A stretch of DNA of 64,000 nt. Origin: Luteolibacter ambystomatis (GTDB lineage Bacteria; Verrucomicrobiota; Verrucomicrobiia; Verrucomicrobiales; Akkermansiaceae). The stretch spans positions 1,488,001-1,552,000 of the forward strand of contig NZ_CP073100.1 of assembly GCF_018137965.1 (NCBI RefSeq), given 5' to 3'. A program made the position numbers and the translations under genes. Shown piece after piece: positions 50,585 to 55,835 of the stretch; position 1 is the first letter of the stretch, and each line of letters begins with the position of its first letter. The notes beneath the pieces were generated by a model. It saw nothing but the letters and a program-made list of their open reading frames with translations. It did no database searches and was not told the DNA's origin.

Positions 50585-50632
50585 CTCAAAAACGAAACGT
50601 CCGCACCGGTGCGAGGCACCGATGCGGACGTT
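50585..50632 (-). terminator. Terminator of the metallophosphoesterase gene
   Basis: On the minus strand, arm AACGTCCGCA pairs with TGCGGACGTT; an inner CGGTGC/GCACCG extension carries a 3-base loop. TTTCGTTTTT follows. Confidence 0.92.
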
Positions 50633-50658: not shown

Positions 50659-53382
50659 TTATTCCTGAAGCAGGATACGGAAGAAGCAGCGTTCGTTGAT
50701 GGAACGATCGAAGTCCACGAGTTCCTCATGCGAGGAAGAGGAGGGCACCACCGTCCGGACCGGTTGCCAGGTCTGGAGATCGACGCTACGCTGCACGGTG
50801 TAGTTCTTGCCGGGTTGGGCGCTGAAGCGGAGTCGCATCTGGTTGCCCTCGATGCTCGATTGCTCCAACTTCAAGGGTGTCGGTGCGACGACGGTGAAGT
50901 TGTAGCGGTTCGAGACCTCCGTGTAGGAATCGTTGGTGTACATCGCCACGAAGTAGTTGCCGGGCGCGAGGTTCGGCAGATGGAAGGTGGCGCTGCCGTT
51001 GGTCTTGCCATCGAAGTAGAGATAGGCGGTCAGCACGTCCACGCCGGGAGTTTCACCCTGCTTGAAGATACCGAGGTAGTCCTTGGGAATACCTGGGCCG
51101 TTGGAGAAGTTGACCGTGAAATCCTGTCCGCTCGGCACCTGGTTGGAGGCCATGGAGACGCTGGAGATCTGGCTGCCGACGGAGAAGGCCACGCGCTGGC
51201 TGATTTCGAAGTAGCCGTCGTTCACCAGATAGACCGCGTAGTAGTAGCCCTTCGGAAGATTGGCGAAGGATTTCGTGCCGGAGGCGGCCGGCGTATATTG
51301 GTAGGCGGTGGAGGTGACGCCACCCACCCCCGGGGTCTGGCCCACCTTGTAAATACCGATCCAATCCTTGGTGCTGCCGGGGGCATTGGCGAAGGTGACG
51401 TTCACGGTTTCTCCTTCCGCATACGCGGTCTTGTCCGTGGTTAGTGTCGGAGTGCTGCCGACATAGAAAGGGACGCGGGGAGCGACTTCGGTGTAGCCAT
51501 CATTGGCGAAGAAAGCGGCGAACCACTCCTGGCCGGCGGCGAGGTCGGTGGTGAAATTGAGCGTGCCGCTTTTCCCGGAGACATACTGCCAGCTCGTAGA
51601 GGCGACCGGTCCGGGGCTCTGACCTTTCTTGTAGATGCCGATCCAGTCCTTCGCATTGCCCGGGCCGTTTTCATAGACCACCGAGAAGTTTTCGGTGTAG
51701 GCATACACCTTTTTGGCGAGGGTGATCTTGGGATCCGCCACCACGCTGCCGGTGACCTCGAAGGTCTTCGATGCGGACCAAGGCGACCACGCGGCATTGC
51801 TGTCGCGATGGCGTACGCGTGTGTAATAGGAGCCATTTGGCAGCGAGTTCGCGGCAAGCGGGAACTGGAGCAGGTTGATGCCGGCGTTGATGTCCACCGG
51901 TTCATAGAGTGGAGCGCCGGTGTCACCGTAGAGGTTTTCAAAGTCGCGGATCTTGTCCACCTTCAGGCTGGTGAACGCGGCATCGCTGGCGACCTGAAAC
52001 CAGGTGCTGTTCAAGGTTTCCGCGGTGCTGGTGGCGAAGGCGGAGCATTGGAGACTCAGGGGCAGGGTGACCGGAGCGGAAAAGGTATTGGTGAGGGACG
52101 GTTGCGATGGCAGGGCGAGACCGAGCTGGCGGTGGAAGGAGTCCACCATGCGGCTGTCGTAGTTCCAGCGGGTGGCAGCCGGGAGGCGCACGTTGGCCTC
52201 GGAATAGCAGGTTACGTCCATGCGGCGGGCCGCGAGGTCGAAGTCCATGAGCTGCCAGGCCCAGTTGGCGATGGTCTTCTGGACATCATCCATGTCCAGT
52301 TCGGTGGACTGTCCCCAGTACTGGTCCCAGGCGGTGCCACCCGAGATGATGTGGTAGATCGGCCACTCGCGCGTCTGGCCGCGGGCGTAGAGGTGGTGGT
52401 GCGCGCCGATGTTCATCACGTGCTTTTCCGTCTCGGCGAAAATCGGCATGATGTCCGAGCGGAACCATCCGGAGATGTCGCCCACATACTGCTCGGCCTG
52501 GTAAGGGCGATGGCAGACGCTGATGCACAGGTCGGTGGTGGAGTCGGTCTTGAGAACGTCCACGAGCGAACGCACCCAGCCCTTCTGCTCCGCGCCAGTG
52601 TGTTCGCTGCTGGTGTGGACGAAGGCGATGTTGGCGAGCTGGTAAGAGTAGTACTTCTCGCCGCCGGGGCTGGTGACGCCGCCGTAGTTGATGTCATCGT
52701 ATCGGAAGATCCGGCCGTAGAGGTTCATGCCGGTATCGTAGTAGGTCTCATGGTTTCCGATCGTGGTCATGATCGGGATGTTCGGCGAGATCAGGCCGCA
52801 CTGCTTGAAGTGCAGGTTGCGGTAGTGGTCGAGAGTGCCTACGTCCACCTGGTCGCCCGGCATGAGGATGAAGTCGATGACCTCCTCGATCGGCTTGTTG
52901 TAGAGGGACTCGATCTTTGCCTTCGCGCAGGCGATCAGCTTCTCGTAGCGGTTCTCAGCGATGATCTGGTTGTCACCCATCACCAGCACGCGCATGCGGC
53001 CGGTCTTCGTGCCAGCGGGTGGCGGCGTGCGGAAGCGGAAGACCTCTGAAACCGTCGAGCCGTTGCTCACACGGTAGTAGTAGTAGCTGTTCGGCGAAAG
53101 GCCGGTGATACGGCCCGCGTGGTAGTTGTAGCCGGAGCCGAGCACGTCGAGATCCGCAGCCACGGAATTGACCAGGGCACCGGGAGACGAGCCCCATTCG
53201 ATCAGGCCCGAGGGAGCATTGTCACTGAACCAGGACACCCACATGGAATCGGGGCGCGGAGTTTGAAGATACGGGCGGATGCCGGAGGGGATGCCGGTGT
53301 ATCCGGAGGGGAACGCAAGGCCGCGGGTGGCGAGGCCGAACGTGCCGAGGGCGGAAAGGCGGAGGAATTGGGCGCGATTCAT
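50659..53382 (-). CDS. Secreted purple-acid-phosphatase-like metallophosphoesterase with three KDWIGIY modules
   Basis: 907 residues with a signal peptide (1-24). A fibronectin-like N-terminal domain is at about 30-125, as in purple acid phosphatases. The calcineurin-like catalytic domain is at about 130-380, with MGDNQ, PGDQVDVG, IGNHETYYD, ISVCHRPY and GAHHHLYARG (the usual GDxG is GDNQ). An unassigned region covers about 380-545. Three related modules follow at about 549-640, 642-737 and 738-835 (KDWIGIYKKGQSPG, KDWIGIYKVGQTPG, KDYLGIFKQGETPG). The last 70 residues match C-termini of secreted verrucomicrobial proteins. It probably frees phosphate from organic esters outside the cell. Confidence 0.88.
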   Translation of the reverse strand: MNRAQFLRLSALGTFGLATRGLAFPSGYTGIPSGIRPYLQTPRPDSMWVSWFSDNAPSGLIEWGSSPGALVNSVAADLDVLGSGYNYHAGRITGLSPNSYYYYRVSNGSTVSEVFRFRTPPPAGTKTGRMRVLVMGDNQIIAENRYEKLIACAKAKIESLYNKPIEEVIDFILMPGDQVDVGTLDHYRNLHFKQCGLISPNIPIMTTIGNHETYYDTGMNLYGRIFRYDDINYGGVTSPGGEKYYSYQLANIAFVHTSSEHTGAEQKGWVRSLVDVLKTDSTTDLCISVCHRPYQAEQYVGDISGWFRSDIMPIFAETEKHVMNIGAHHHLYARGQTREWPIYHIISGGTAWDQYWGQSTELDMDDVQKTIANWAWQLMDFDLAARRMDVTCYSEANVRLPAATRWNYDSRMVDSFHRQLGLALPSQPSLTNTFSAPVTLPLSLQCSAFATSTAETLNSTWFQVASDAAFTSLKVDKIRDFENLYGDTGAPLYEPVDINAGINLLQFPLAANSLPNGSYYTRVRHRDSNAAWSPWSASKTFEVTGSVVADPKITLAKKVYAYTENFSVVYENGPGNAKDWIGIYKKGQSPGPVASTSWQYVSGKSGTLNFTTDLAAGQEWFAAFFANDGYTEVAPRVPFYVGSTPTLTTDKTAYAEGETVNVTFANAPGSTKDWIGIYKVGQTPGVGGVTSTAYQYTPAASGTKSFANLPKGYYYAVYLVNDGYFEISQRVAFSVGSQISSVSMASNQVPSGQDFTVNFSNGPGIPKDYLGIFKQGETPGVDVLTAYLYFDGKTNGSATFHLPNLAPGNYFVAMYTNDSYTEVSNRYNFTVVAPTPLKLEQSSIEGNQMRLRFSAQPGKNYTVQRSVDLQTWQPVRTVVPSSSSHEELVDFDRSINERCFFRILLQE

Positions 53383-53472
53383 GAGTGGCTGGAGATTGAG
53401 GGAGGAGAGTTGAAAACCGGATGGCGGAAACAGCCGGGCAAGCGGGCATTTTCGTCCGCCACAAGGCGCGGA

Positions 53473-53489
53473 TTGTCACCATCTGTCAC
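53473..53489 (-). promoter_or_regulatory. Candidate Pho box of the metallophosphoesterase gene
   Basis: Direct repeat TTGTCAC, CAT, CTGTCAC, 91 bases upstream of the gene. The period is 10 bp in place of 11, and the half-sites point away from the gene, so this is the weakest of the set. Confidence 0.45.
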
Positions 53490-53501
53490 TGGACTGATCC
53501 G

Positions 53502-55835
53502 TCAGTTTGGAGCGACGGAGAGCCGGAAAAACTGCTGTTGCGATCCGGGAGGTGGCGTAACTTTCACCGACATTTCCTCGCCATCGCCACCGGCGGATGA
53601 AGGGGCGTCGTCACTACACCAATCATCCGCTGGAACCCAGTTGGTGAGATCGATGGAACGCAGCAGGCGATAGCGCATGCCACCCGCGAGATAGTCGCAG
53701 CCCGTGCCGGTCCCGCCCTTGCGGCGCAGGTAGCTGACACGCAACCCATCGGACTCGCGGCGGGTGCGGCAGAGACGCGAGGCATCGGCAAATCCAGCGG
53801 GCATGCCGGAGGCGTAGTCGAGGATATTGCTGATGCCATTGCCATCATCATCTCCATTCAAGCCCTGGGGCGGGGCTCCGCCGAAGCGCTGGTTCTCCCA
53901 GTAGTCCGGCAGTCCGTTGCCGTCCGCATCCACTTGCTTGACGCTGAATTCCGTGAGCACGGCCGCGTGGTCGGACGGCCAGGTGTTGCCGGCGATCGCG
54001 GTGATGTCGCTGTAGTAGTTGTTGAAGGTGTTCTCCACCGCCGTGTGATAGACGGAGGAGCTGAGAGTCGTGAGACGGTTGCCCTTGGCGAAGACGAAGT
54101 CGATGCGGTCCTGTGGTTCATCGCCCGTATAGATGGGTGCCCAGGTATTGCCCGGGTCCGTGACGGGATTCGGATGCATCTGGCGGAAGGTGTCCACCAG
54201 TCCGGCATTGGTCAGGGAGAGCGTGGCGGGCCACGCGATGGTCTTGCCGTAGTGTTGGGATGCAGCCGCCGCGGTCCAGTCCTGGTGTGAGGGGCAATTG
54301 AAGTCACCGCACACGACCACCGGTGTCTGATCCGCGGCGCCGAGCTGGCTTTGCATGGCGGCCACCAAAGCGGTGGCTTGTTCGTCGCGATTGGACGCAA
54401 GCTCCTCGGTCATGGTCGTCGCATTCGTGGAGCCGGAGCGCGCGGCCTCGTACGGACCGTAGTGGAGATAGTCGAGGTGGGTGGAATACACGATCACCTC
54501 CTGCAGTGGATTGGCGCACATCGTGATGCGCGCTCCAACCGCGACGCTGGCGGAGTAGGTGTCCGTGATCGGATACCGGCTGATCACGCCGACATCGCCA
54601 CCGCCGGGAATGCGGGTATAGAACCAGCCGATCTCCGCGGCCACGGCCTGTGGCTGGAACTGGTTCGAACCAGTGACATTGTCCGTGCTCTCCACGGTGC
54701 AGACGACATCGGCTCCCGAGAGCAGGATGCTGTCGATGCCCTTGCGCACGCCATTGGTCACCTTGCCCCAGCCGTGGAAAAGGTTGTAGGAAAGCACCTT
54801 CAATTTGTCGATGTGGGCAGTGCCCGGTGCGAAGACCTGCACGGTGAAAGTCGCGGTCGCATTGTTGCCGGGAATGTCGGTGGCTTTCACCGTGAAGGTA
54901 TTCGTGCCCACATCGCCAACGGCGGGAGTGCCGCCGAGCGTGCCATCCGCCGCGATGGTGAGCCACGTCGGCCCGGACACTTTGGCAAATGTCAGCGTAT
55001 CACTGGTATCCGTGTCCTTGGCATAGCCGCGCACGCAGCCGGTGTAGGCGGTGCCGGTCAGCGCGTAGCGCAGTGGGAAGTTGTTCACCACCCACTGCGG
55101 GACCGCGGGGCCGCCACCGGCGGTGATCGTGAAGGGGATACCTGGGGCGATGTCCGTGTAACCGTCATTGGCAAAGAACCGAGCAACATAGGAACCGGCG
55201 GGCAGCGTCGGGCTGCTGAAGGTCACGCTGCCGTTCTGTACCACCGCGGCCGGAGCGGTGGTGCTGCCATTGAGGTATCGCCATGTCAGCGAGTAGTCGG
55301 TGCCCGGTGTTTGATTGGAGCGGTAGATCGCGATCCAGTCCTTCACCATCATCGTATTGCCGGTGGCACGGCCGAAGGTGGCGGTGATGTTTTCACCAGC
55401 GAGGTAGCTGGACTTGTTCAGGCTGAACGTCGGCGGAGCGGGCAGCACCGTGAAGGAGACAGCCGGGGCGAGCTCGGTGTAGCCGTCGTTCGACAGGAAG
55501 CGCGCGACGTAGTTGCCAGCGGCCAGTCCCGGATTGGTGAAGGTGATGCTGCCACTCTGCACCGCCGCTCCCGGAGCGGTCTTGGTGCCATTGAGATAAA
55601 ACCAGCGCAGCGAGGGGCTGCTGCCACTGGGGACCTGGGTGGGGGTGTAGATGCCAATCCAATCCTTCGCCGCCTGCGTGTCTCCGGAGACGCGGGTCCA
55701 GGTGGCGGTGATATTGTCACTGGATGCGTAGGTGGTCTTGTCCACGCCGAAGGTGACGGCGTGGGACAGGGCGGGGAGGAGCCAGACCGCGGAGAAGAGA
55801 CTCAGGACGAGCCGACGCAATAGGAAAACCTGCAT
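53502..55835 (-). CDS. Secreted endonuclease/exonuclease/phosphatase-family protein with two KDWIGIY modules
   Basis: 777 residues with a signal peptide (1-26). Two modules at about 27-131 and 132-235 (KDWIGIYTPTQVPSG; KDWIAIYRSNQTPG) match those of the neighbouring phosphatase. A putative Ig/cadherin-like domain follows (about 245-345). The EEP catalytic domain is at about 348-640, with VLSYNLFHG, the catalytic Glu in CTVEST, STHLDYLHYGPY, CGDFN and the final SDH (WPSDHAAVL). A Ca-loop-like DADGNGLPDYWE comes next and then a secreted-protein tail. EEP enzymes cut DNA, phospholipids or inositol phosphates; the substrate here is open. It lies 119 bases upstream of the other phosphatase gene. 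Confidence 0.88.
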   Translation of the reverse strand: MQVFLLRRLVLSLFSAVWLLPALSHAVTFGVDKTTYASSDNITATWTRVSGDTQAAKDWIGIYTPTQVPSGSSPSLRWFYLNGTKTAPGAAVQSGSITFTNPGLAAGNYVARFLSNDGYTELAPAVSFTVLPAPPTFSLNKSSYLAGENITATFGRATGNTMMVKDWIAIYRSNQTPGTDYSLTWRYLNGSTTAPAAVVQNGSVTFSSPTLPAGSYVARFFANDGYTDIAPGIPFTITAGGGPAVPQWVVNNFPLRYALTGTAYTGCVRGYAKDTDTSDTLTFAKVSGPTWLTIAADGTLGGTPAVGDVGTNTFTVKATDIPGNNATATFTVQVFAPGTAHIDKLKVLSYNLFHGWGKVTNGVRKGIDSILLSGADVVCTVESTDNVTGSNQFQPQAVAAEIGWFYTRIPGGGDVGVISRYPITDTYSASVAVGARITMCANPLQEVIVYSTHLDYLHYGPYEAARSGSTNATTMTEELASNRDEQATALVAAMQSQLGAADQTPVVVCGDFNCPSHQDWTAAAASQHYGKTIAWPATLSLTNAGLVDTFRQMHPNPVTDPGNTWAPIYTGDEPQDRIDFVFAKGNRLTTLSSSVYHTAVENTFNNYYSDITAIAGNTWPSDHAAVLTEFSVKQVDADGNGLPDYWENQRFGGAPPQGLNGDDDGNGISNILDYASGMPAGFADASRLCRTRRESDGLRVSYLRRKGGTGTGCDYLAGGMRYRLLRSIDLTNWVPADDWCSDDAPSSAGGDGEEMSVKVTPPPGSQQQFFRLSVAPN

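Follow-up and report, generated by a model that had tools for sequence, protein, structure and literature searches.

The window analysed here, 64,000 nucleotides of Luteolibacter ambystomatis (contig NZ_CP073100.1, positions 1,488,001 to 1,552,000), contains two adjacent genes encoding a purple acid phosphatase-like (PAP-like) metallophosphoesterase and an EEP-family protein, and these two proteins carry five copies of a module that resembles the eukaryotic SKICH domain. We suggest, with moderate confidence, that the modules are members of the SKICH-type Ig superfamily acting as docking domains for secreted phosphoesterases. The literature found assigns SKICH to animal autophagy receptors and to phosphoinositide 5-phosphatases; in open-licence PMC papers, none of the titles listed concerns a bacterial SKICH domain, and no paper on a bacterial PAP was found. 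The present analysis suggests that relatives of this "animal" domain exist in bacteria, where they are likewise attached to phosphate-cutting enzymes.

Five modules and their resemblance to SKICH

The 907-aa PAP-like protein (50659..53382, on the minus strand like all features below; open reading frame (ORF) and Pfam) comprises a Pur_ac_phosph_N domain (residues 32-119, 53026..53289, Pfam 52.7 bits), a Metallophos catalytic domain (residues 130-331, 52390..52995, 38.4 bits), a stretch with no Pfam match above cut-off, module 1 (residues 550-643, 51454..51735), module 2 (residues 644-737, 51172..51453), module 3 (residues 738-833, 50884..51171) and a C-terminal tail. The 777-aa EEP-family protein (53502..55835; ORF and Pfam) starts with a putative signal peptide, which is directly followed by module 4 (residues 27-132, 55440..55757) and module 5 (residues 135-240, 55116..55433), a He_PIG Ig-like domain (54834..55076, 43.1 bits) and the EEP catalytic domain (residues 349-623, Exo_endo_phos, 53967..54791, 58.7 bits). 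Both enzymes are presumably secreted and sorted.

A preliminary description of this region had placed five modules in two adjacent phosphatase-like proteins, and we confirmed the ORFs, the catalytic domains (by Pfam) and the repeats. The modules are 94-106 aa long, and all 10 pairs match each other by BLASTP with 32-54% identity (the least significant pair has an E-value near 1e-7 at a nominal database size of 1,000,000 residues). Thirteen positions are invariant in all five (G26, K29, D30, I34, P41, G44, Y53, G59, F63, N78, D79, Y81 and F90, in the numbering of module 2 as cut). The motifs KDWIGIY and NDGYTE, by which the modules had been characterised, are present but vary: for the former, module 3 has KDYLGIF and module 5 KDWIAIY, and for the latter, module 2 has NDGYFE and module 3 NDSYTE.

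The claimed resemblance to SKICH held at the level of sequence profiles. As whole proteins, the PAP-like and EEP proteins match Pfam SKICH (PF17751) with 28.5 and 27.8 bits, respectively, above the cut-off of 23.4, and other carriers of the module, from loci labelled L, reach 52.8 (L054), 36.5 (L045), 35.0 (L014), 34.6 (L230), 34.4 (L023) and 32.8 bits (L028). When 80 module representatives were chosen at <62% identity out of 271 modules, 43 matched Pfam SKICH at E ≤ 1 (best 1.6e-6), which made it by far the most frequent family. A PDB search with a profile of these 80 modules retrieved NDP52 and TAX1BP1 (E 0.005-0.013; 0.0076 for the best single SKICH stretch listed), and an HMM-HMM comparison with NDP52 and TAX1BP1 by hhalign gave 95.4% probability over 31 columns (E 1.7e-8, as a one-to-one comparison). 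Six subgroup profiles scored 12.8-21.5 bits against both SKICH fragments, and all exceeded the best of 1000 shuffles (5.6-12.5 bits). The alignments from the PDB profile search and from hhalign are strong up to the KDWIGI motif and weak past it, that is, in the C-terminal half of SKICH from the YYQFCYV strand onward. When the two window proteins were compared with the PDB by phmmer, SKICH was not among the matches at E ≤ 1; a match of module 5 to poxvirus 2L in this search (E 0.015) was taken as chance. The Pfam SKICH profile at E ≤ 0.001 found nothing in the own genome or in 60 family genomes, and it was also silent in 14 of 14 control genomes, so that absence is not shown by it; the genome searches reported below used the module profiles A1 and A2 in its place.

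The predicted fold points in the same direction. An AlphaFold2 (AF2) model of module 2, built from the 80-row alignment, has a predicted local distance difference test score (pLDDT) of 97.7 and seven main strands, the third of which contains DWIGIY. Superposition by VIA-align placed it best on SKICH crystal structures: the first eight rows are TAX1BP1 and NDP52 entries (Z 9.2-9.7, root-mean-square deviation 2.0-2.3, 85-86 of 90 residues), followed by GH66 dextranase (Z 8.6) and alpha2-macroglobulin (8.5). Unlike the profile alignments, the alignment of this predicted model to SKICH spans the whole domain. The NDP52 SKICH domain is described as a seven-strand Ig-like sandwich in which the WIGI segment is buried (PMC3510444).

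Carriers, gene clustering and module history

A profile scan of contigs found 198 related stretches under titles of Verrucomicrobiota, Bacteroidota and Pseudomonadota, and the best 80 were analysed as carrier loci. The list of 151 carrier ORFs comprises 94 PAP, 22 EEP, one GDPD, one phospholipase C (PLC), one L261-type and 32 unassigned. The query skews it towards PAP, and it counts at least three loci twice (L014/L268, L035/L222 and L015/L263). A less biased count was obtained from the 29 module-positive genomes among 260 of the family. Their 58 carriers comprise 18 PAP, 19 EEP, one weakly assigned GDPD/sphingomyelinase D (SMaseD)-like protein and 20 others, and phosphoesterases of unrelated folds make up 38 of the 58. 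Pfam scans of 18 of the 20 others (or of identical copies) identified one clostripain, three DUF1592-type cytochrome proteins and 14 proteins with no enzyme domain over cut-off. Outside the family, the module occurs on a phospholipase C of Eleftheria terrae, on a GDPD protein in L043, after the EEP domain in L251 and L254, and on carriers without a recognised phosphoesterase (L252, L253, L256-L259). Phosphoesterases are the commonest carriers, not the sole ones.

Some individual carriers are worth describing. L261:2445-4568, in the own genome, is a 708-aa frame with three modules, whose C-terminal region is weakly like sphingomyelinase D and phospholipase D structures (E 0.0018); the GDPD/SMaseD-like label rests on such weak E-values, Pfam named no GDPD there, and its antibody light-chain matches were taken as generic Ig similarity. 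L247, L248 and L249, from three genomes, have divergent modules between DUF1588 and DUF1585 of DUF1592-type planctomycete-cytochrome proteins. L221, L230 and L239 are proteins of 620-633 aa with four modules that adjoin a module PAP, and the Pfam scan recognised no enzyme domain in L221 and L230.

Carrier genes cluster. In the 29 genomes, another module gene adjoins 12 of the 18 PAP genes, two of these neighbours being EEP as in the window, and 13 of the 20 other carriers adjoin a module PAP. In the window, the EEP and PAP-like genes are separated by 119 bp. A strong terminator-like hairpin (17 pairs, loop 3, T-rich tail; 50596..50632) lies directly 3' of the PAP-like gene and none is reported on the minus strand within the gap; therefore, a single transcript is plausible, and the two genes are probably co-transcribed. 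The sigma-70 pattern found no promoter-like site.

The prevalence of the module is low, with counts that are lower bounds since 13-20 first-look candidates were scored per genome (36 for the own genome in the 145-genome search). At a module profile threshold of E ≤ 1e-5 or 1e-6, positives were 1 of 145 and 8 of 387 genomes of the phylum, and 29 of 260 of the family; a class-level search centred on Hahella gave 7 of 369 genomes, and a phylum-level search centred on Chryseobacterium gave 13 of 395, the central genome being counted in both. In the Chryseobacterium-centred search, 12 of the 13 positives are PAP-like as judged by frame length and three modules, and two were classified by sequence. 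No phage gave a tblastn match, and none of 154 pattern matches in IMG/VR was confirmed.

Among plasmids, one of 72,556 records was positive. The phosphocholine-specific phospholipase C of Eleftheria terrae (L128:1826-4450) has a SKICH-like module at its end, together with a dockerin-like tail; in the other nine plasmid records that were listed, the match to this enzyme stops at about residue 706, before the module. At 10 of 13 loci inspected (L016, L020, L022, L024, L025, L026, L028, L029, L049 and L128), a PAP or PLC gene with a dockerin-like tail is directly followed by a gene for a small secreted PEP-CTERM-type protein, possibly forming an enzyme-anchor pair. Dockerin_1 is over its cut-off in L028 and not over it in the PLC, and the PEP-CTERM cut-off was passed by five of eight downstream proteins scanned, including L018, which is a different, larger protein. 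A cohesin reading of the small proteins, suspected by eye, was dropped, as Pfam cohesin was listed for none of the eight at E ≤ 1.

Module positions are conserved individually. When the window PAP was compared with nine other PAPs, the same-numbered module was the best among positions 1-3 in 27 of 27 comparisons, with a fourth module tying or exceeding it in two. In a FastTree tree of 97 modules, which are short sequences and were rooted at the midpoint, positions 1, 2 and 3 fall in separate cross-phylum clades (local support 0.87, 0.90 and 0.92, respectively); therefore, the three-module PAP moved or descended as a unit. In the same tree, the fourth PAP module of L054 falls within clade 1, the modules of EEP, GDPD and neighbour proteins group together (0.999), and the PLC module joins the fourth PAP modules (0.87 for the group). 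Modules have thus also been exchanged between enzymes.

Proposed docking and its alternatives

According to the explanation that we favour, the five modules would belong to the SKICH-type Ig superfamily as bacterial, extracellular representatives; they would form seven-strand sandwiches with KDWIGI(Y/F) as the third strand and be placed as tandem non-catalytic domains on secreted phosphoesterases from two neighbouring, probably co-transcribed genes. They would dock the PAP-like and EEP enzymes, and the neighbour-encoded module proteins of relatives, to a common surface or substrate, and candidate targets are a phosphorylated polymer, a membrane or a shared partner. In animals, SKICH is needed to recruit INPP5K to the endoplasmic reticulum, plasma membrane and nucleus (PMC8507493). 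Docking is favoured because of this analogy and because unrelated phosphoesterases, as well as the products of neighbouring genes, share the module.

The main rival explanation, which we consider rather doubtful, is that the modules are passive spacers, which would only keep the catalytic domains at a distance from the cell surface and have no binding partner. Secreted bacterial enzymes commonly use Ig-like repeats as linkers, the copy number varies from 1 to 5 per carrier, many of the conserved residues look structural, and the WIGI segment is buried in NDP52 (PMC3510444). Spacers would not readily explain, however, why positions 1-3 are individually conserved across phyla in all 27 comparisons, or why the N75-D76-x-Y78 turn is conserved (of the 80 modules, 61 have the N, 70 the D and 75 the Y) though it lies outside the predicted strands. 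This turn is the candidate site, and it is presumably exposed. In addition, the adjacency of 13 of the 20 non-phosphoesterase carriers to a module PAP fits interaction better than spacing.

It is less likely still that a generic bacterial Ig/fn3-like repeat reached the DWIG strand independently, so that the match to SKICH is one of fold only. Several observations weigh against our explanation, and some of them would be expected from such convergence. First, module 2 on its own reaches just 18.9 bits with Pfam SKICH, below the cut-off of 23.4, and the M3 subgroup profile exceeds its best shuffle against NDP52 by merely 0.3 bits (12.8 versus 12.5). Second, sequence similarity to SKICH is confined mostly to about 30 columns around KDWIGI, and the 80 representatives also match Cna-B-like families (SpaA, SdrD_B) weakly. 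Third, SKICH is surpassed in the PDB profile search by NOMO2 and a fimbrial protein, whose E-values for the whole chain are 0.00067 and 0.00086, respectively. Fourth, the lead of SKICH over unrelated Ig-like folds in VIA-align is just 0.6-1.1 Z, many such folds lying at Z 7-8.6, and Foldseek with the module 2 model found nothing at E ≤ 0.001, its top 50 rows being free of SKICH. Finally, 20 of the 58 carriers in the related genomes have no phosphoesterase assignment. However, the scores of NOMO2 and the fimbrial protein are sums of several weak stretches, none of which alone is better than E 1.2, and independent tests of sequence and structure both rank SKICH first among single-domain matches. 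Moreover, in the carriers scanned, SKICH, plus HECW_N once, are the only Pfam families above cut-off that have their best stretch on a module. We consider common ancestry with eukaryotic SKICH likely, rather than convergence.

Comparison with known domains and phosphoesterases

Beyond the preliminary description, further carriers of the module include GDPD and phospholipase C proteins, among others, and the module also appears to be related to HECW_N and fn3_PAP. In L054 (titled Microscilla), three Pfam matches overlap: SKICH at 654-703, HECW_N (PF16562) at 657-701 and fn3_PAP (PF17808) at 650-762. HECW_N reaches 28.4 bits in L054 against a cut-off of 26.7; it is below cut-off in the other carriers where it is listed and is not listed by Pfam for the two window proteins at E ≤ 1. 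In VIA-align, the N-terminal domain of HECW2 (2lfe) is row 18 (Z 7.8, 87 residues). HECW_N is similar to the modules in this fold alignment and in the L054 match, and differs in being a single domain of the ubiquitin ligases HECW1/2, at their N-terminus. By sequence, fn3_PAP is the weakest link: its cut-off of 33 bits was reached by none of the proteins listed (14.0 in the window PAP-like protein, at best 22.4 in L054). The N-terminal domain of a lupin purple acid phosphatase (PPD1) nevertheless aligns with the model over 90 of 90 residues (Z 8.1), and the domain is attached to the same enzyme class, although it is single and N-terminal in plants and the modules are repeated and C-terminal in the window PAP-like protein.

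Together with HECW_N and fn3_PAP, SKICH may thus form branches of a broader Ig-like superfamily. A bolder proposal, to which we give a low probability, is that all three go back to a single ancient Ig-like domain; its bacterial branch would serve to target phosphoesterases (PAP-like, EEP, GDPD/SMaseD-like and phospholipase C), and the link to phosphate-ester cleavage would persist in INPP5K (EEP and SKICH) and in plant PAPs (PAP and fn3_PAP). If true, it would imply a shared phosphate-ester or membrane-targeting role that predates autophagy receptors. The bacterial modules link SKICH to HECW_N and to plant PAP domains, offer an outgroup for SKICH evolution as a secreted tandem relative on unrelated phosphoesterase folds, and are simple soluble proteins in which to seek an ancestral SKICH ligand.

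The PAP-like protein shares Pur_ac_phosph_N and Metallophos with purple acid phosphatases and keeps the metallophosphatase motifs (GDNQ, GDQVD, GNHE, CHRPY and AHHHLY). True purple acid phosphatases have a metal-ligand tyrosine in GDxxY, which is absent here, GDQVD standing in its place at residues 176-180. For the homologous carrier L054, the PDB search returned 6git, "Purple acid phosphatase", at 2.6e-8; the window protein itself has no PDB match at E ≤ 1.

The EEP domain contains SYN, E382, STHLD, GDFNCPSH, DRID and SDH, and the columns invariant in 21 homologues are SxN, E, H, GD.N.PSH.DW, DRID and PSDH. Inositol 5-phosphatases carry the signature WxGDxNxR and PxWCDRxL; the window protein has GDFNCPSHQDW and EPQDRIDFVF instead. 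Its seven PDB profile matches at E ≤ 0.01 are ExoIII/APE-type nucleases, nocturnin and sphingomyelinase C, with no inositol 5-phosphatase. Fold matches with Z 20-22 include a bacterial mannosyl-6-phosphatase, TDP2 and neutral sphingomyelinase, and no inositol 5-phosphatase appears by name among the 50 listed, which does not exclude one. The earlier idea of a bacterial relative of SKICH-EEP proteins stands insofar as the combination of EEP and module recurs in 22 carrier ORFs; the idea that the EEP protein is a SKIP-like enzyme, however, finds no support. It is therefore highly improbable that the protein is a bacterial SKIP, that is, a secreted inositol-phosphate/phosphoinositide 5-phosphatase that is targeted by SKICH and is either an ancestor or a descendant of INPP5K/J, despite the shared superfamily, the SKICH-like modules and the EEP-then-module order in two distant bacteria (L251 and L254).

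The window protein resembles INPP5K/SKIP in joining an enzyme of the EEP superfamily to a SKICH-like domain, and differs from it in being putatively secreted, in lacking the 5-phosphatase signature and in its reversed order of modules, He_PIG and EEP, the catalytic domain coming first in INPP5K. The modules themselves share with SKICH of NDP52/CALCOCO2, TAX1BP1 and INPP5K the Pfam match above cut-off, the KDWIGI core strand and, in the model, the seven-strand Ig-like sandwich. Whereas eukaryotic SKICH domains are single and intracellular, the bacterial modules are putatively secreted, shorter, arranged in tandem arrays of up to five and marked by a conserved NDGY turn.

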